Made by a program: the position numbers and the translations under genes. The notes below the pieces were generated by a model. That model did not search any database. It was not told where the DNA came from and was given only the letters and a program-made list of their open reading frames with translations. 44,441 bases of DNA from an uncultured Ruminococcus sp. (GTDB taxonomy: Bacteria > Bacillota > Clostridia > Oscillospirales > Acutalibacteraceae): the NCBI GenBank assembly GCA_902802105.1, contig CADCKR010000020.1, positions 1 to 44,441 of the forward strand, written 5' to 3'. Positions 24,962-42,234 of the stretch are shown here, one piece after another (within the stretch, counting starts at the first letter, position 1; the number at the start of each line of letters is the position of its first letter).

Positions 24962-25066
24962 TAATTTGTATATTTTATTTGAAATAAAGGATGTTCCCGT
25001 CGGAAGATGTGCCGCTGTAATGGCTTTAAGGAATGTCTGAGATACTTTAATAAAGGACTCAATAAT

Positions 25067-25765
25067 ATGCAGATAAAGATATATACAGCAGATGTCAGGG
25101 AGCTGGATGATCCGGAGCTGTTCCGCTGTGTCTACAGGGGCGTTTCATCCGAGAGAAAAGCAAAAACCGACCGTATGATGTTCAATAAGGACAAAAAACT
25201 TTCTCTCGGCGCAGGTGCGCTGCTGGAGTACGTTCTTGCATCTCATGGAGTTACCGACCTGACATTTGCGACAGAACATAATAAAAAGCCAAGACTTGCA
25301 AATGAGGATGGCATTAAATTCAATATTTCCCATTCGGGAACAAAGGTAATCTGCGCTGTTTCGGATAATGATATCGGCTGTGATGTTGAGCAGATAACGG
25401 ATATAGACATGGAGATAGCTAAAAGGTTTTTCTTTGCAGAGGAGTACGAATCCCTGATGAAATGCGCTGACAGAGCAGAAAGAAACGATCTTTTTTTTCG
25501 CTATTGGACACTCAAGGAAAGCTTTATGAAGGCTGCCGGGCTTGGCTTCGGGCTTGCGCTGGATGACTTCTGTATTCTTCTTGACAAGGATGATATTTCC
25601 GTCAGACATACAGTGGACAGCAGAAAATACTTTTTCCGCGAATTCTTCCTGAACGACGGATACAGATACGCTGTATGCAGCGCAGACAAAACGGACATTC
25701 CGGAAGACCTGATGATCTGCAGCTTCAAGTCATTACTTCATGATAATGATTTCTGTTCTCAATAA
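25067..25765 (+). CDS. Sfp-type 4'-phosphopantetheinyl transferase
   Basis: A 232-residue PPTase that converts apo carrier domains to the holo form using coenzyme A. Visible signatures: FNISHSGTKVICAVS, the Mg-binding DIGCDVEQI, and WTLKESFMKAAGLG (WxxKESxxK). The ATG at 25067 follows AAAGGA at 9 bases; an upstream ATG at 25007 has poor spacing. It precedes the NRPS by 59 bases on the same strand, so its main clients are likely the four NRPS carrier domains, and possibly the ACP at 5976. Confidence 0.95.
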   Translation: MQIKIYTADVRELDDPELFRCVYRGVSSERKAKTDRMMFNKDKKLSLGAGALLEYVLASHGVTDLTFATEHNKKPRLANEDGIKFNISHSGTKVICAVSDNDIGCDVEQITDIDMEIAKRFFFAEEYESLMKCADRAERNDLFFRYWTLKESFMKAAGLGFGLALDDFCILLDKDDISVRHTVDSRKYFFREFFLNDGYRYAVCSADKTDIPEDLMICSFKSLLHDNDFCSQ

Positions 25766-37827: not shown

Positions 37828-39591
37828 ATGACAAGAAACGATTACCTGATAAAACGAAAATTCAACAGTTATCTTGTTCCGGGCATACTTATGGTCATTG
37901 CTATGCAGCTTGGCAATATCGTTGACAGTATCCTTGTCAGTATGTTCATTGACATTGACGGACTAACAGCTATCTCATTGAGTATGCCTGCTCTGTGCTT
38001 TATGCAGATGTTCGGATTTATTATAGGCGTGGGCGGTGCGATAACGATCTCTGTCAAGCTCGGAAAGCGCCAGATGGATGAAGCCTCCGGTATTTTTTCG
38101 GTGTGCGTGATCTCCGTTATCGTCATATCACTTGTGTTCACCGTACTGTCATTTTTTATTACCCGTCCGCTGACGATGCTTCTTGCATCAACAGCGCAGC
38201 TGCAGGCATTGCTTGAACCGTATCTTTTTATATTCATCTGCTTTATCCCGTCGCTCAATGTCTGCCTTGTGCTGGCTAACATAATGACAATAGACAACAA
38301 TCCCAAGCTCGGCTCAGCTTCCTTTGTAGTTGCAAATGCCGTTAACCTTATCCTCGATTATGTTTTTCTGAAATACACCGATATGGGAATGACAGGAGCA
38401 GCCCTTTCGTCAATTATCGGCTTCGGCGCAGGAATACTGCTGGTGATCCCTTATATATTCTCGAAAAAGAGAATGCTGCGCTTCAGCCTGCGAGAGGGCA
38501 TCAAACAGATAAGATCAATTTTTGTGGTCTTCAAAAACGGTATGCCGCAGGCAATGTATTTTATTATGGCCATACTTAAATATTACATTCTCAACGCCTT
38601 TATACAGCAGACTCTCGGCGCTGATAATATGGCTATTTATGCTGTATGCATCAATTCGGTCAATATTGTCAGACTTTGCATTGAGGGCGTTATCGGAGTT
38701 GTTCAGACCATCGGCGGCGTCTTGTTCGGCGAAAAGGATTACTACGGTATCCGAAGGCTTGTAAGGAGAACTGTGATATTCTGCTGTGCTGCTGTTGCAG
38801 CATTGATGGCACTGTTCATTATTTACCCGCAGCTGATACTGACTGTTTTCTCCTTCAATAAGCCTGATCTTTACGACATAGCCATGCTCTGTGTTCGTTT
38901 GTTCAGCTTCAGCTTTGCATTCTATGCTGCCAACCGTATCGTTCAGGTTTATTATCAGACGACGCTCAATACAAAGCTTTCATCCATCAATACTACTCTC
39001 GACGGTTTTGTTTTCCTGGTGCCGATCTCAATGATCTTTATCGGGACAATGGGGGTTGTCGGAGTAAGTATCGCAACAATAGTAACGGAAGCAATGTCCT
39101 TCTTCGCGGTATTTATCTACAGGATCATCCAGCAGAAACGTGGAAAGCTGCCGCAAAAGGGCTTCCTTATGATACCGGAAAAGGACGGAGAGAGTCTGGC
39201 TGATATTACTGTGAGCAGTACGGACGAACAGGCCGTTGAGGTGTCAAAGCAACTTATTGAGTGTTGTGAAAGGGAGGGTATCCCGTCGGAAAAAGCCACC
39301 ATAATAAGCGTGGCTGCCGAAGAGCTTACATCAAATATCGCCCGTTACGGATATAAAGGAAACAAGCCGAGCTTTATAGACATAAGGCTTTCAAAGGTCG
39401 ATAACAGACTTATTCTTCGTGTGCGTGATGACGGTGTTTCCTTTAATCCGACGGAATACAGCTCCGGAGAAAGCGAGGAATTCAGTCTCGGAGGCATTGA
39501 GCTTATCAGGTCTGTTGCAGACAAGATGACCTATAACAGAGTGCTTAATATGAACAACACGGTGATCGAAGTAGCTATAGACACTGTTTGA
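37828..39591 (+). CDS. MATE exporter fused to an RsbW/SpoIIAB-like ATPase domain
   Basis: A 587-residue protein. Residues 1-435 form a 12-helix MATE-type transporter (NIVDSILVSMFI, NIMTIDNNPKLGS, GMPQAMYFIMA). Residues about 455-587, on the cytoplasmic side, form a GHKL ATPase like anti-sigma kinases. Its N-box is A-E498-E499-L-T-S-N503, the G1 box D534-D535-G536 and the G2-like region SLGGIELI (553-560). The gene begins 3 bases after the NRPS stop, so it probably exports the NRPS product. The ATPase domain is the natural partner of the STAS protein encoded 18 bases downstream. A fusion of this type is not something I know as characterised. A frameshift joining two genes is unlikely, because the linker at 436-455 is continuous and well coded. 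Confidence 0.9.
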   Translation: MTRNDYLIKRKFNSYLVPGILMVIAMQLGNIVDSILVSMFIDIDGLTAISLSMPALCFMQMFGFIIGVGGAITISVKLGKRQMDEASGIFSVCVISVIVISLVFTVLSFFITRPLTMLLASTAQLQALLEPYLFIFICFIPSLNVCLVLANIMTIDNNPKLGSASFVVANAVNLILDYVFLKYTDMGMTGAALSSIIGFGAGILLVIPYIFSKKRMLRFSLREGIKQIRSIFVVFKNGMPQAMYFIMAILKYYILNAFIQQTLGADNMAIYAVCINSVNIVRLCIEGVIGVVQTIGGVLFGEKDYYGIRRLVRRTVIFCCAAVAALMALFIIYPQLILTVFSFNKPDLYDIAMLCVRLFSFSFAFYAANRIVQVYYQTTLNTKLSSINTTLDGFVFLVPISMIFIGTMGVVGVSIATIVTEAMSFFAVFIYRIIQQKRGKLPQKGFLMIPEKDGESLADITVSSTDEQAVEVSKQLIECCEREGIPSEKATIISVAAEELTSNIARYGYKGNKPSFIDIRLSKVDNRLILRVRDDGVSFNPTEYSSGESEEFSLGGIELIRSVADKMTYNRVLNMNNTVIEVAIDTV

Positions 39592-39609
39592 TAAAGAGGA
39601 GGACCGATA

Positions 39610-39909
39610 ATGAAAATCACTGTAAAAAACGAAGGAAAGGTATATACACTGGTAATAGAAGGAAGAATAGATACTCTTACCGCCCCTGAGCTGGGAAAGG
39701 TTTTTAATGATAATGCCGAAAAAGCTGATAAAATGATTTTTGATATGTACGGCGTGGATTATATATCATCCGCAGGGATCAGAGCGATCGTATCGGCATA
39801 CAAAGCTATGGGCAGCAAGGACGGTCTTGTGCTTAAAGGTCTGAGGAACAATGTGCTGACCATTATAAGAATGACCGGACTTGAAAAGAAGCTGACTATC
39901 GAAGAATAA
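39610..39909 (+). CDS. STAS-domain anti-anti-sigma-like protein
   Basis: A 99-residue single STAS domain of the SpoIIAA/RsbV type: TLVIEGRIDTLTAPEL, then DMYGVDYISSAGIRAI. The likely phosphorylation site is Ser54 in SSAG, at the position of the family DSxG serine. In partner switching the non-phosphorylated form binds an RsbW-like kinase and frees that kinase's other target. Here the kinase-like domain is on the exporter encoded immediately upstream, and a matching phosphatase is encoded by the facing operon. GAGGAGG lies 7 bases before the ATG. No sigma factor follows, unlike classical rsb operons. Confidence 0.9.
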   Translation: MKITVKNEGKVYTLVIEGRIDTLTAPELGKVFNDNAEKADKMIFDMYGVDYISSAGIRAIVSAYKAMGSKDGLVLKGLRNNVLTIIRMTGLEKKLTIEE

Positions 39910-39927
39910 CAGATAATAAATGATATT

Positions 39928-39973
39928 AAAAAAGAGCTGCAGCTGCGGTTTTCCGCTGCTGCAGCTCTTTTTT
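39928..39973. terminator. Bidirectional terminator between the two partner-switching operons
   Basis: A 16-bp perfect stem (AAAAAAGAGCTGCAGC and its complement) with A- and T-runs on the outside. It ends exactly one base before the stop codon of the SpoIIE-type gene. Confidence 0.9.
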
Positions 39974-41938
39974 TCAGCTGCTAAGATTTTTGATAATGGT
40001 CAGAATGTTTTTCCCGTCTTTGTACTGATACGAATATTCGTCAGCTATTTCAAATGTGAGAAATCTTCCTAATCCGCCTATGTCGATGTCGGGATCATAG
40101 CCGTCTATATCAGGGATATCCTTTGTCGGATCGAACGGTATCCCGCTGTCAATGAAAACAAGCGTAACTTTTTTCCCGTCCTGAGAGATACTGACTTCTG
40201 CCGTTCCGGCGCCGCCTTTGTATGCATAGCTGCATATATTTACAAACATTTCCTCTGCCATCAGCCGTAAAGTCAATATGTCGTCCTCTTCAATATCAAG
40301 TGAACGCAGCTTATCGTTGATAATGCTTATATTTTCGGCTTTTGCTTCAAGCTTTAATGAGTATTTTCTGATTTCCGGGATTGTCATAGTCAGTATTGTT
40401 ATATCATCACTTTGTTCGGCTTTTTCTGAAAATGCTTTTACGCTCTCAAGAACCGAGTTCAGAATAACCTCTCCCGATTTTTTCAGATTACGGGAAAGCG
40501 TACCCTTGAGTCTGTCGTCGCCGTACAGTGAATCGTCTTTGCTTTTTGCTTCGGGAACGCCGTCGGTATAAAGAAACAGCGTGTCGCCCGGCTTCATTTT
40601 TATACGTCTTTCAGTGTATTGCTCATCCTCAAAAATGCCGGCCGCTGATTCAAATGCGCTTTCTATTTCAATAAGTCTGTCCGAAAGCAGATATGGCGGA
40701 TTGTGACCGGCGTTGGAGTAAACGAGCTCTCCGGTTTCAGGATGATATATTCCGATGAAGGTAGTAATAAACATCATATTGGGGTTATGCTTCGCAAGAT
40801 GATCGTTGTATTCTGCCATTATTCTGCTTGGAGATAAACCGGACTCTGCATATTGCCGGAGTAAGGTGATCGCGTTTGCCATGAAAAGAGCAGCCGAAAC
40901 TCCCTTGCCTGAAACATCGGCAATTATCACACATATACTCCCATCGCTGAGTATACGGTAATCGTAAAGATCGCCTCCGACGTCCCTTGCAGGCAGCATA
41001 CACGAATGAATATTCACGCTTTCGGTTTGGAATGATGTTGGCTCCAGAAAACCTTTCTGTATTTCCCTGGCAATATTAAGCTCTGTTTCCTGCATCGCTT
41101 TTTCACGGTTGAACTCTGAAATATCCTTGATATAACGGTCTATCTCATACGCCATGCTGTTGAAGGCATCAGCCATTTTTGCAAATTCATCCTGTCCCTT
41201 GATCTTCAGCGGTACGAATTCATTGCCGCGCTCATGGATAAAACCGACCATTTTTTTGCTGATAAGAGTGACCGGCTTCTGTATCTTTCTTTTCAGAATA
41301 AACGCTATGATAAAGACGATCAGAACCGATGTGACGATTATCATAACCATTATATATCTGAATCTTTTCTGTACCGTGTTGACAGCCTCGCTGACGGACA
41401 TTTCCGCGCCGGCAATACAGAATGTTTCCTTCTCCACGCCGGAGTTATCAGAGGACACATTCTTCTTTACCGGAACATAGCAGACTATAGTTTCACCGTA
41501 TTCCGTATTGTCCTGATAGAATGTCACTTCATCATTTGTGAAAGCCCTGATCTCTTCTTCGTACAATATATCGGAAACATATCCTATATAGTGTGATCGC
41601 TTTGCTGATTCAGAAGCGTCTTTGCCGTATCCTATGGAAAGGTATGTTACGCTGCCCTTGTCAAGATCAGGTATCTCGGTATAGATATACGCCATACCCA
41701 TAATATTGCAAAGACTATCGAATCTTGCGGCGCTGTCTTCAAGATCGTAATTGCGGCTGATATCAGCTGTTTCAAAATAATTTGCGGCGATAAAAGCCGC
41801 TTCCTTAACATCTTCCCGGCACTTGTTCATGGTTGCATTATATGTTATGATATATGATCCGAGAAGAACCGCGAGATCTGTAATAAGAACAAGGGGAAGT
41901 ATGAGCATTACGAGTTTCCAAAAAATTGATTTTTTCAT
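39974..41938 (-). CDS. Membrane sensor with HAMP, SpoIIE-type PP2C phosphatase and RsbW-like ATPase domain
   Basis: A 654-residue signalling protein. TM1 is at 7-33, an extracytoplasmic sensor region at 34-194, TM2 at 195-216, and HAMP with a helical linker at 216-295. The SpoIIE/RsbU-type phosphatase spans about 300-520, with metal ligands in D319-V-G-G-D323, D341 (DVSGKG) and D511-D512-I-T. A C-terminal GHKL domain (about 525-654) has LMAEEMFVN and DIGGLGRFLT. It should dephosphorylate STAS proteins in response to an outside signal. The C-terminal ATPase may be a kinase or merely a docking or binding domain. It is encoded 2 bases after the STAS gene, probably translationally coupled since its own ribosome site is weak. 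Confidence 0.92.
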   Translation of the reverse strand: MKKSIFWKLVMLILPLVLITDLAVLLGSYIITYNATMNKCREDVKEAAFIAANYFETADISRNYDLEDSAARFDSLCNIMGMAYIYTEIPDLDKGSVTYLSIGYGKDASESAKRSHYIGYVSDILYEEEIRAFTNDEVTFYQDNTEYGETIVCYVPVKKNVSSDNSGVEKETFCIAGAEMSVSEAVNTVQKRFRYIMVMIIVTSVLIVFIIAFILKRKIQKPVTLISKKMVGFIHERGNEFVPLKIKGQDEFAKMADAFNSMAYEIDRYIKDISEFNREKAMQETELNIAREIQKGFLEPTSFQTESVNIHSCMLPARDVGGDLYDYRILSDGSICVIIADVSGKGVSAALFMANAITLLRQYAESGLSPSRIMAEYNDHLAKHNPNMMFITTFIGIYHPETGELVYSNAGHNPPYLLSDRLIEIESAFESAAGIFEDEQYTERRIKMKPGDTLFLYTDGVPEAKSKDDSLYGDDRLKGTLSRNLKKSGEVILNSVLESVKAFSEKAEQSDDITILTMTIPEIRKYSLKLEAKAENISIINDKLRSLDIEEDDILTLRLMAEEMFVNICSYAYKGGAGTAEVSISQDGKKVTLVFIDSGIPFDPTKDIPDIDGYDPDIDIGGLGRFLTFEIADEYSYQYKDGKNILTIIKNLSS

Positions 41939-41940
41939 TT

Positions 41941-42234
41941 TTATTCAATATTGAGTCTGCCGGCAAAGCCGGTCATTTTTATTATCTCCATAATATTACT
42001 CCTGATATTCCTGAGCACAAGATTATTGCTGCCGACAAGCTTTCTGATTTTAATAATACTGCGGATCCCTGCGGAAGATACATACTTTACATCTGCCATA
42101 TCAAGCACGATTCTGCTGCACTGCGGCAGACATTCTTCAACAGCCTTATCGAGCATGGCGGATGATGTTGTATCAATATCTCCTTCGACAGAGAGTGTGC
42201 ATATGTCCGCGTCAATACACTTTGAAATATTCAT
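41941..42234 (-). CDS. STAS-domain anti-anti-sigma-like protein (second copy)
   Basis: A 97-residue STAS domain, similar to the one at 39610-39909: LSVEGDIDTTSSAML, then DMADVKYVSSAGIRSI, with Ser54 in the same SSAG motif, and an ending KMTGFAGRLNIE that parallels RMTGLEKKLTIEE. The two are evidently paralogues. Cross-reaction with both ATPase domains of the region is plausible. The start at 42234 is set by GGGAGGAAA; the longer frame to 42279 lacks a ribosome site. Confidence 0.9.
   Translation of the reverse strand: MNISKCIDADICTLSVEGDIDTTSSAMLDKAVEECLPQCSRIVLDMADVKYVSSAGIRSIIKIRKLVGSNNLVLRNIRSNIMEIIKMTGFAGRLNIE

Follow-up and report, generated by a model that had tools for sequence, protein, structure and literature searches.

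A MATE exporter fused to an RsbW-type ATPase domain is encoded next to a reductase-ended NRPS in an uncultured Ruminococcus sp., together with two STAS proteins and a membrane-bound SpoIIE-type phosphatase. Judging from the domains and gene neighborhoods of this and related loci, phosphorylation may serve gut and rumen bacteria to switch the likely exporter of an enzyme-made peptide. Partner switching is best known from the control of sigma factors, and to our knowledge little has been described on post-translational control of natural-product export. The window, i.e., the whole stretch of DNA analyzed, comprises 44,441 nucleotides (assembly GCA_902802105.1, contig CADCKR010000020.1), and the features discussed here are collected in Table 1.

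The layout is convergent, with NRPS, fusion and first STAS genes on the plus strand, followed by the second STAS gene and the SpoIIE-phosphatase/ATPase gene on the minus strand. The C-terminus of the NRPS is a NAD-binding reductase domain, which would release the product in an aldehyde-type reaction. Only three bases separate the end of the NRPS ORF from the start of the fusion ORF. An earlier note, made from the DNA letters, had described a MATE protein with an RsbW/SpoIIAB-like C-terminus three bases behind an NRPS gene, then a STAS gene and a convergent pair of STAS and SpoIIE/ATPase genes; this arrangement is borne out by the ORFs and the domain profiles (Pfam for the fusion). The HAMP domain that was also proposed for the sensor fared less well, since its profile stays below the cut-off in the window protein (E 0.0059) and barely passes in relatives at two other loci (L010, L015). 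Coordinates of STAS protein 2 are those of its ATG start; the ORF list begins this gene at a TTG further upstream.

Table 1. Features of the NRPS-exporter locus in the window (positions in the 44,441-nucleotide stretch).
Feature	Position	Strand	Evidence
4'-phosphopantetheinyl transferase, probably gene 1 of the NRPS operon	25007..25765	+	PF01648, E 3.9e-16
NRPS, 3999 aa	25825..37824	+	four adenylation (PF00501) and three condensation (PF00668) stretches; PF07993 at residues 3637-3876
MATE exporter fused to RsbW-type ATPase domain, 587 aa, one open frame	37828..39591	+	
HATPase_c_2 (RsbW/SpoIIAB-like) domain of the fusion, residues 463-573, with E499, N503, D534, G536	39214..39546	+	profiles
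STAS protein 1, 99 aa, probable phospho-acceptor Ser54	39610..39909	+	PF01740, E 9.7e-14; TIGR00377; alignment to solved STAS proteins
Terminator-like hairpin between the convergent gene sets	39941..39966	+	consensus match; 3 in region vs. 1.9 expected
Membrane sensor phosphatase with a transmembrane sensor at the N-terminus, a HAMP-like part, a SpoIIE PPM phosphatase domain and an RsbW-type ATPase at the C-terminus	39974..41938	-	
RsbW-type ATPase domain of the SpoIIE protein, E563 and N567	39989..40336	-	
STAS protein 2, 97 aa, SSAG motif as in STAS protein 1	41941..42234	-	PF01740, E 1.7e-13

In Pfam, the fusion protein matches PF01554 (MatE) in two stretches (E 5.8e-20) and PF13581 (HATPase_c_2) above its cut-off (E 1.7e-12). 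The ATPase domain has EE at 498-499, N503, and RDDG at 533-536. Alignment with RsbW places E499 and N503 at the N-box Glu and Asn, so the N-box and G1 (DDG) residues named in the earlier note are confirmed; the role of the N-box residues is known for kinases of the RsbW/SpoIIAB type. The closest solved relative of the domain by profile is RsbW (6m36), and SpoIIAB entries were matched as well, with the histidine kinase VraS ranked between the two. Since the RsbW equivalog model NF003144 gives 20 bits against a cut-off of 145, the domain is by its profile scores a relative and not an RsbW ortholog. This assignment rests on profiles, as MATE-like chains took up the structure-search lists of the fusion and left little comparison of the ATPase fold.

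In the MATE part, which agrees with the family in profile and fold, D33 aligns with an Asp of DinF-BH (Asn in the 5c6n sequence), which we take to be the conserved TM1 Asp of the DinF/PfMATE type and to have the same role. Asp is found here in 86 of 97 rows (the window counted twice), with a gap in five and a different residue in six. As the residue is largely kept, transport by the fused MATEs is probably retained. Compared with the relatives at L003 and L004, the MATE part has a dN/dS of 0.06-0.09 and the ATPase part one of 0.10-0.13; the ATPase domain is under purifying selection in the window's own group.

The fusion is widespread. One scan of genome contigs gave 36 fusion loci, 29-95% identical and full-length except for two that start at a contig end (L031, L037), from Ruminococcus, Lachnospiraceae, Selenomonadaceae and others, mostly rumen or gut MAGs plus strain D16-51. 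The full set comprises 89 distinct fusions including that of the window and reaches down to 16% identity; it is a non-random set, drawn from a scan seeded by the window protein and from selected matches of genome surveys, with duplicates removed by identical last 400 residues and many contigs ending close to the genes. In the window's family, 36 of 300 genomes match the C-terminal part at E 1e-6, including free-standing and SpoIIE-borne ATPases, and in its genus 30 of 64 genomes match the profile, plain MATEs among these. A phylum-wide draw gave profile matches in 71 of 398 genomes, mostly plain MATEs, and the fusion was present in seven of the ten regions fetched. An assembly or frameshift artefact, which the earlier note would have suspected had no other genome carried the fusion, is ruled out by the 36 loci of the single scan and the 89 distinct fusions from several families. 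Open-access literature, to which the search was largely confined (most subscription journals were outside its scope), yielded no description of a MATE-RsbW fusion, in line with the same note, whose author knew of no characterized system of this form.

A quick maximum-likelihood tree was built from 123 MATE parts, and in it 86 fused sequences fall on one side of a branch (SH-aLRT 99) and 37 plain MATEs on the other. Fifty-four NRPS-linked rows share one subclade with five others (support 91; the branches are long and the details unsure). Seven fusions found later stand outside the 89 (L285, L288, L316, L318-L321). L318 has intact residues and lies beside an NRPS, in L319-L321 G536 is replaced by Cys and the stretches read contain no NRPS, and L285 and L288 are classed as fusions solely for their length and a residual likeness.

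Neighboring genes, whose tabulation the earlier note had proposed as a check, were compared with those of 37 plain MATEs (MATE ORFs of 350-520 aa, identical ones dropped, from 36 regions around unfused matches). An NRPS lies within 1.5 kb of 55/89 fusions vs. 3/37 plain MATEs. Within 8 kb, STAS genes are found at 46/89 fusions vs. 1/37 plain MATEs, and SpoIIE genes at 46/89 vs. 0/37. At least one of the two is present at 58/89 fusions vs. 1/37 plain MATEs (Fisher 7e-12, which ignores relatedness), and this linkage extends to fusions both with an adjacent NRPS (33/55) and without (25/34). A fusion confined to NRPS clusters is rejected by the 34 fusions without an NRPS within 1.5 kb, a few of which are at contig ends. 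The remaining 31/89 fusions have no STAS or SpoIIE gene within 8 kb; some of these are also at contig ends, which depress the neighbor counts. Longer flanks revealed STAS or SpoIIE genes beyond the NRPS in three cases (L322, L323, L324) and none in four (L325, and L312, L313, L314 as far sides of L024, L038, L030), while three (L310, L311, L315) ran to contig ends. Where the fusion locus had no STAS gene, STAS genes were present elsewhere in the genome in 8/8 tested.

The gene set persists while its order differs among lineages. NRPS-fusion-STAS is found at L005, L008, and L009, a compact STAS-NRPS-fusion-SpoIIE run at L010-L013, L015-L017, L073, and L074, NRPS-fusion-STAS-SpoIIE at L034, and fusion-NRPS-STAS-SpoIIE at L072 with L258.

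The catalytic residues of the fused ATPase domain follow the NRPS. E499, N503, D534, and G536 are all intact in 53/55 NRPS-adjacent fusions, the exceptions being L077, where they are lost, and L071, which is truncated by a stop; among the other fusions all four are intact in only 6/34, three of which (L026, L031, L037) lie near contig ends, and they are lost in 28/34 (Fisher 5e-16, relatedness again being ignored). Over the whole set, E499 is kept in 88/89 and N503 in 67/89. Lost kinase residues are known in four NRPS-linked fusions, L077 and the later found L285, L288, and L316; the L285 and L288 loci also hold an NRPS, a STAS gene and a SpoIIE protein with an ATPase domain. The L077 domain is without E499 and N503, and a free 136-aa ATPase gene (L077:12900-13307) lies next to the STAS gene of that locus, a possible case of domain replacement. 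In these alignments the fusion domain outlives its kinase site several times, and its persistence suggests docking as the common function, with phosphorylation possible by another RsbW-type domain. Since most fusions outside the NRPS-linked clade have lost these residues, which are retained chiefly within it, what the domains have in common may be binding and not kinase activity.

The partner proteins are well conserved. Both window STAS proteins score above the cut-off of TIGR00377, and STAS protein 2 is 37% identical to STAS protein 1. Ser54 of the latter aligns with TM1442 and other solved STAS proteins as an acceptor-type Ser, presumably the one phosphorylated in RsbV and TM1442, and it is invariant in the 51 of 52 rows that have a residue at this site. 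The phosphatase domain of the SpoIIE protein (PF07228, E 6e-51) has D341, D459, D511, and D512, which we take to be the metal-binding Asp of PPM phosphatases, and these are kept in 44/44 proteins. E563 and N567 of its ATPase domain are kept in 21/21 proteins having that domain. Thus a second RsbW-type domain, also intact, is present on the SpoIIE protein, the MATE-borne domain need not be the sole kinase, and a scheme with the MATE domain as the only kinase is unsupported. The window SpoIIE protein matches no Cache family in Pfam; that of L154 contains dCache. In the predicted model of the sensor part, two long helices flank a domain of mixed helices and strands, a region scarcely covered by the PDB comparison. 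Against L003, the sensor part (residues 1-285) evolves faster (dN/dS 0.41) than the phosphatase (0.13) and ATPase (0.25) parts.

When approached from the NRPS side, 37 reductase matches were found in 31/300 genomes. Eleven of them adjoin a fused MATE, including L285 and L288 with their degenerate domain. Six (L289-L294) have STAS, SpoIIE or kinase genes with no fused MATE seen; one of these (L289) has a STAS gene only and is close to a contig end. The other 20 show no such genes in the stretches read (some of 1.5 kb only; three were not fetched). Loci L290-L294 combine a reductase-ended NRPS (about 1420-1460 aa), STAS, SpoIIE and a free RsbW-type ATPase of 135-160 aa, and on gene content this is a second association between partner switch and NRPS. 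As the circuit exists there with no fused MATE, it may act on something else too, which speaks against the exporter as its sole output.

Sigma factors are rare in these surroundings. No match to the sigma model TIGR02937 was found on the window contig, in agreement with the earlier note, and 10 were found across the genome. Other genes of 94 loci were clustered by BLAST, with families named by eye except for GH3 and PGA_cap. The widest family, ABC-ATPase-like, occurs at 14/94 loci and may merge several families via a common domain; GH3, PGA_cap and response-regulator-like families follow with 6/94 each, and histidine-kinase-, HTH- and ECF-sigma-like families with 4/94 each. With sigma-like genes, recognized by eye, at no more than 4/94 loci, a sigma factor as the output was rejected. 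Elsewhere in the window's genome (contig C25), a 153-aa ATPase gene is followed by a sigma gene.

A partner switch with the exporter as effector, in which STAS docks on the MATE-borne domain under phosphorylation control, appears on balance probable. Observed are the fusion, its conservation and single clade, the gene linkage, the retained catalytic residues, the invariant Ser and the invariant phosphatase residues; that STAS binds, is phosphorylated and gates export, in which sense it does so, what is exported and which signal acts are inferences. The MATE part would export the product of the reductase-ended NRPS, and its RsbW-type domain would be the docking site for unphosphorylated STAS, in the NRPS-linked clade probably a kinase as well. 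Docking would alter the transport cycle. STAS would be released once its Ser54 is phosphorylated by the MATE domain and/or the SpoIIE-borne domain, and an extracytoplasmic signal would drive the membrane-bound SpoIIE phosphatase to restore it. With its two STAS genes and two RsbW-type domains, the window leaves room for two layers, in which the phosphatase protein would work with STAS protein 2 and the exporter with STAS protein 1; other loci show only one STAS. Of the STAS-gated export put forward in the earlier note, the setting holds, as parts of a switch surround the exporter of the NRPS cluster and recur in several families, while binding, phosphorylation, gating and its direction are conjectural. 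Such a recurring exporter-kinase fusion by reductase-ended NRPSs of rumen and gut Bacillota would directly link an outside signal to peptide release, and would explain STAS and SpoIIE genes at loci without a sigma factor. The wider clade with its often decayed kinase site would provide a natural series for how a kinase becomes a docking module. More speculative is a closed, sigma-free secretion switch, which we consider doubtful: the exporter domain would be the Ser kinase for its own STAS gate, and the membrane phosphatase would sense the exported peptide outside and reset the gate. If true, release of the reductase-made peptide would be phospho-controlled and self-regulated, and the same exporter clade with a docking-only domain would serve other products, e.g., of GH3-type ligases.

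The main rival explanation reverses the flow of information. The exporter would be a transceptor whose transport state sets the kinase activity, with STAS phosphorylation reporting the product load to an unlinked target. It would agree with the retained kinase residues where an NRPS is adjacent, with the circuit devoid of fused MATE at L290-L294, and with known signaling fusions of transporter and kinase (CbrA and the Amt5 ammonium sensor kinase). However, the loci share no candidate target gene, the most widespread of their other families reaching 14/94, and the domain is without kinase residues in most non-NRPS and in four NRPS-linked fusions, a loss that a reporter kinase could not afford, so that we regard this explanation as rather unlikely. 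L290-L294, with reductase NRPS, STAS, SpoIIE and free kinase, could also indicate that synthesis is what the switch controls, at the level of transcription, of the NRPS or of some other enzyme. The MATE part would then do no more than anchor an anti-sigma-like or adaptor domain in the membrane, which would suit canonical RsbW domains, as these pair with both a STAS protein and a sigma factor. This explanation is quite improbable given the scarcity of sigma-like genes (4/94 loci), the transport Asp (D33) kept in the MATE part, and the STAS or SpoIIE genes that stay within 8 kb in 25/34 fusions without an NRPS within 1.5 kb.

It is very improbable that the ATPase domain is a passive appendage for folding or dimerization and its linkage to STAS and SpoIIE a functionless inherited operon structure. 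Loss of catalytic residues in 28/34 fusions without adjacent NRPS would be expected of such an appendage, but purifying selection in the window's group (dN/dS 0.10-0.13), the high retention of E499 (88/89) and N503 (67/89), and a gene set that persists although its order differs between lineages argue against it.

The exporter switch shares its parts with SpoIIAA/SpoIIAB/SpoIIE and RsbV/RsbW/RsbU of Bacillus, i.e., a domain with N-box Glu and Asn, a STAS protein with an acceptor-type Ser and a SpoIIE-type PPM phosphatase, but its RsbW-type domain belongs to a membrane exporter, and the window contig contains no sigma gene. RsbU-RsbW fusions of the Rv1364c type are the best fold match of the SpoIIE protein and likewise have phosphatase and kinase domain in one chain, whereas the window protein has a membrane sensor in front and the second RsbW-type domain sits on the exporter. 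In the SiaA/SiaB/SiaC partner switch the output is a cyclase. The SypE/SypA switch has biofilm control as its output (PMC10120452). Unlike these two, the window has its kinase-like domain fused to a transporter. In the MlaFEDB ABC transporter, the ATPase subunit is bound by the STAS protein MlaB, and a phosphomimetic at the equivalent Thr lowers binding, although phosphorylation of MlaB is described there as not demonstrated (PMC7367683); the window differs in transporter class and in having adjacent kinase and phosphatase genes. CbrA (SLC5-histidine kinase) and Ks-Amt5 (Amt-histidine kinase) are transceptors that, like the window fusion, unite transporter and kinase ATPase domain in one chain, but they are uptake-type carriers with two-component histidine kinases, in contrast to an exporter with a domain of the partner-switch Ser-kinase type. 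Precedents thus exist for both halves of the proposed switch, MlaB for STAS on a transporter ATPase and CbrA and Amt5 for transporter-kinase fusions.

At some loci each, the companions of fusions without NRPS are SpoIIE proteins, STAS-x-ATPase proteins of about 530 aa, or GH3-type ligases. The STAS-x-ATPase proteins, in which STAS and an RsbW-type ATPase occupy opposite ends, adjoin fusions at L078, L080, and L082 (9952-11538), and the middle of the L082 protein is APH kinase-like. The window's genome encodes a protein of the STAS-x-ATPase kind on contig C16 (L222:1492-3108). GH3-family ligases (PF03321, Pfam on L032 only) occur at six loci (L029, L031, L032, L088, L091, L092), where the MATE fusion has lost catalytic residues in its ATPase domain. 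A PGA_cap-type gene is found at L165, L173, L175, L176, L178, and L084 (Pfam on L178 only), five of these in the window's genus.
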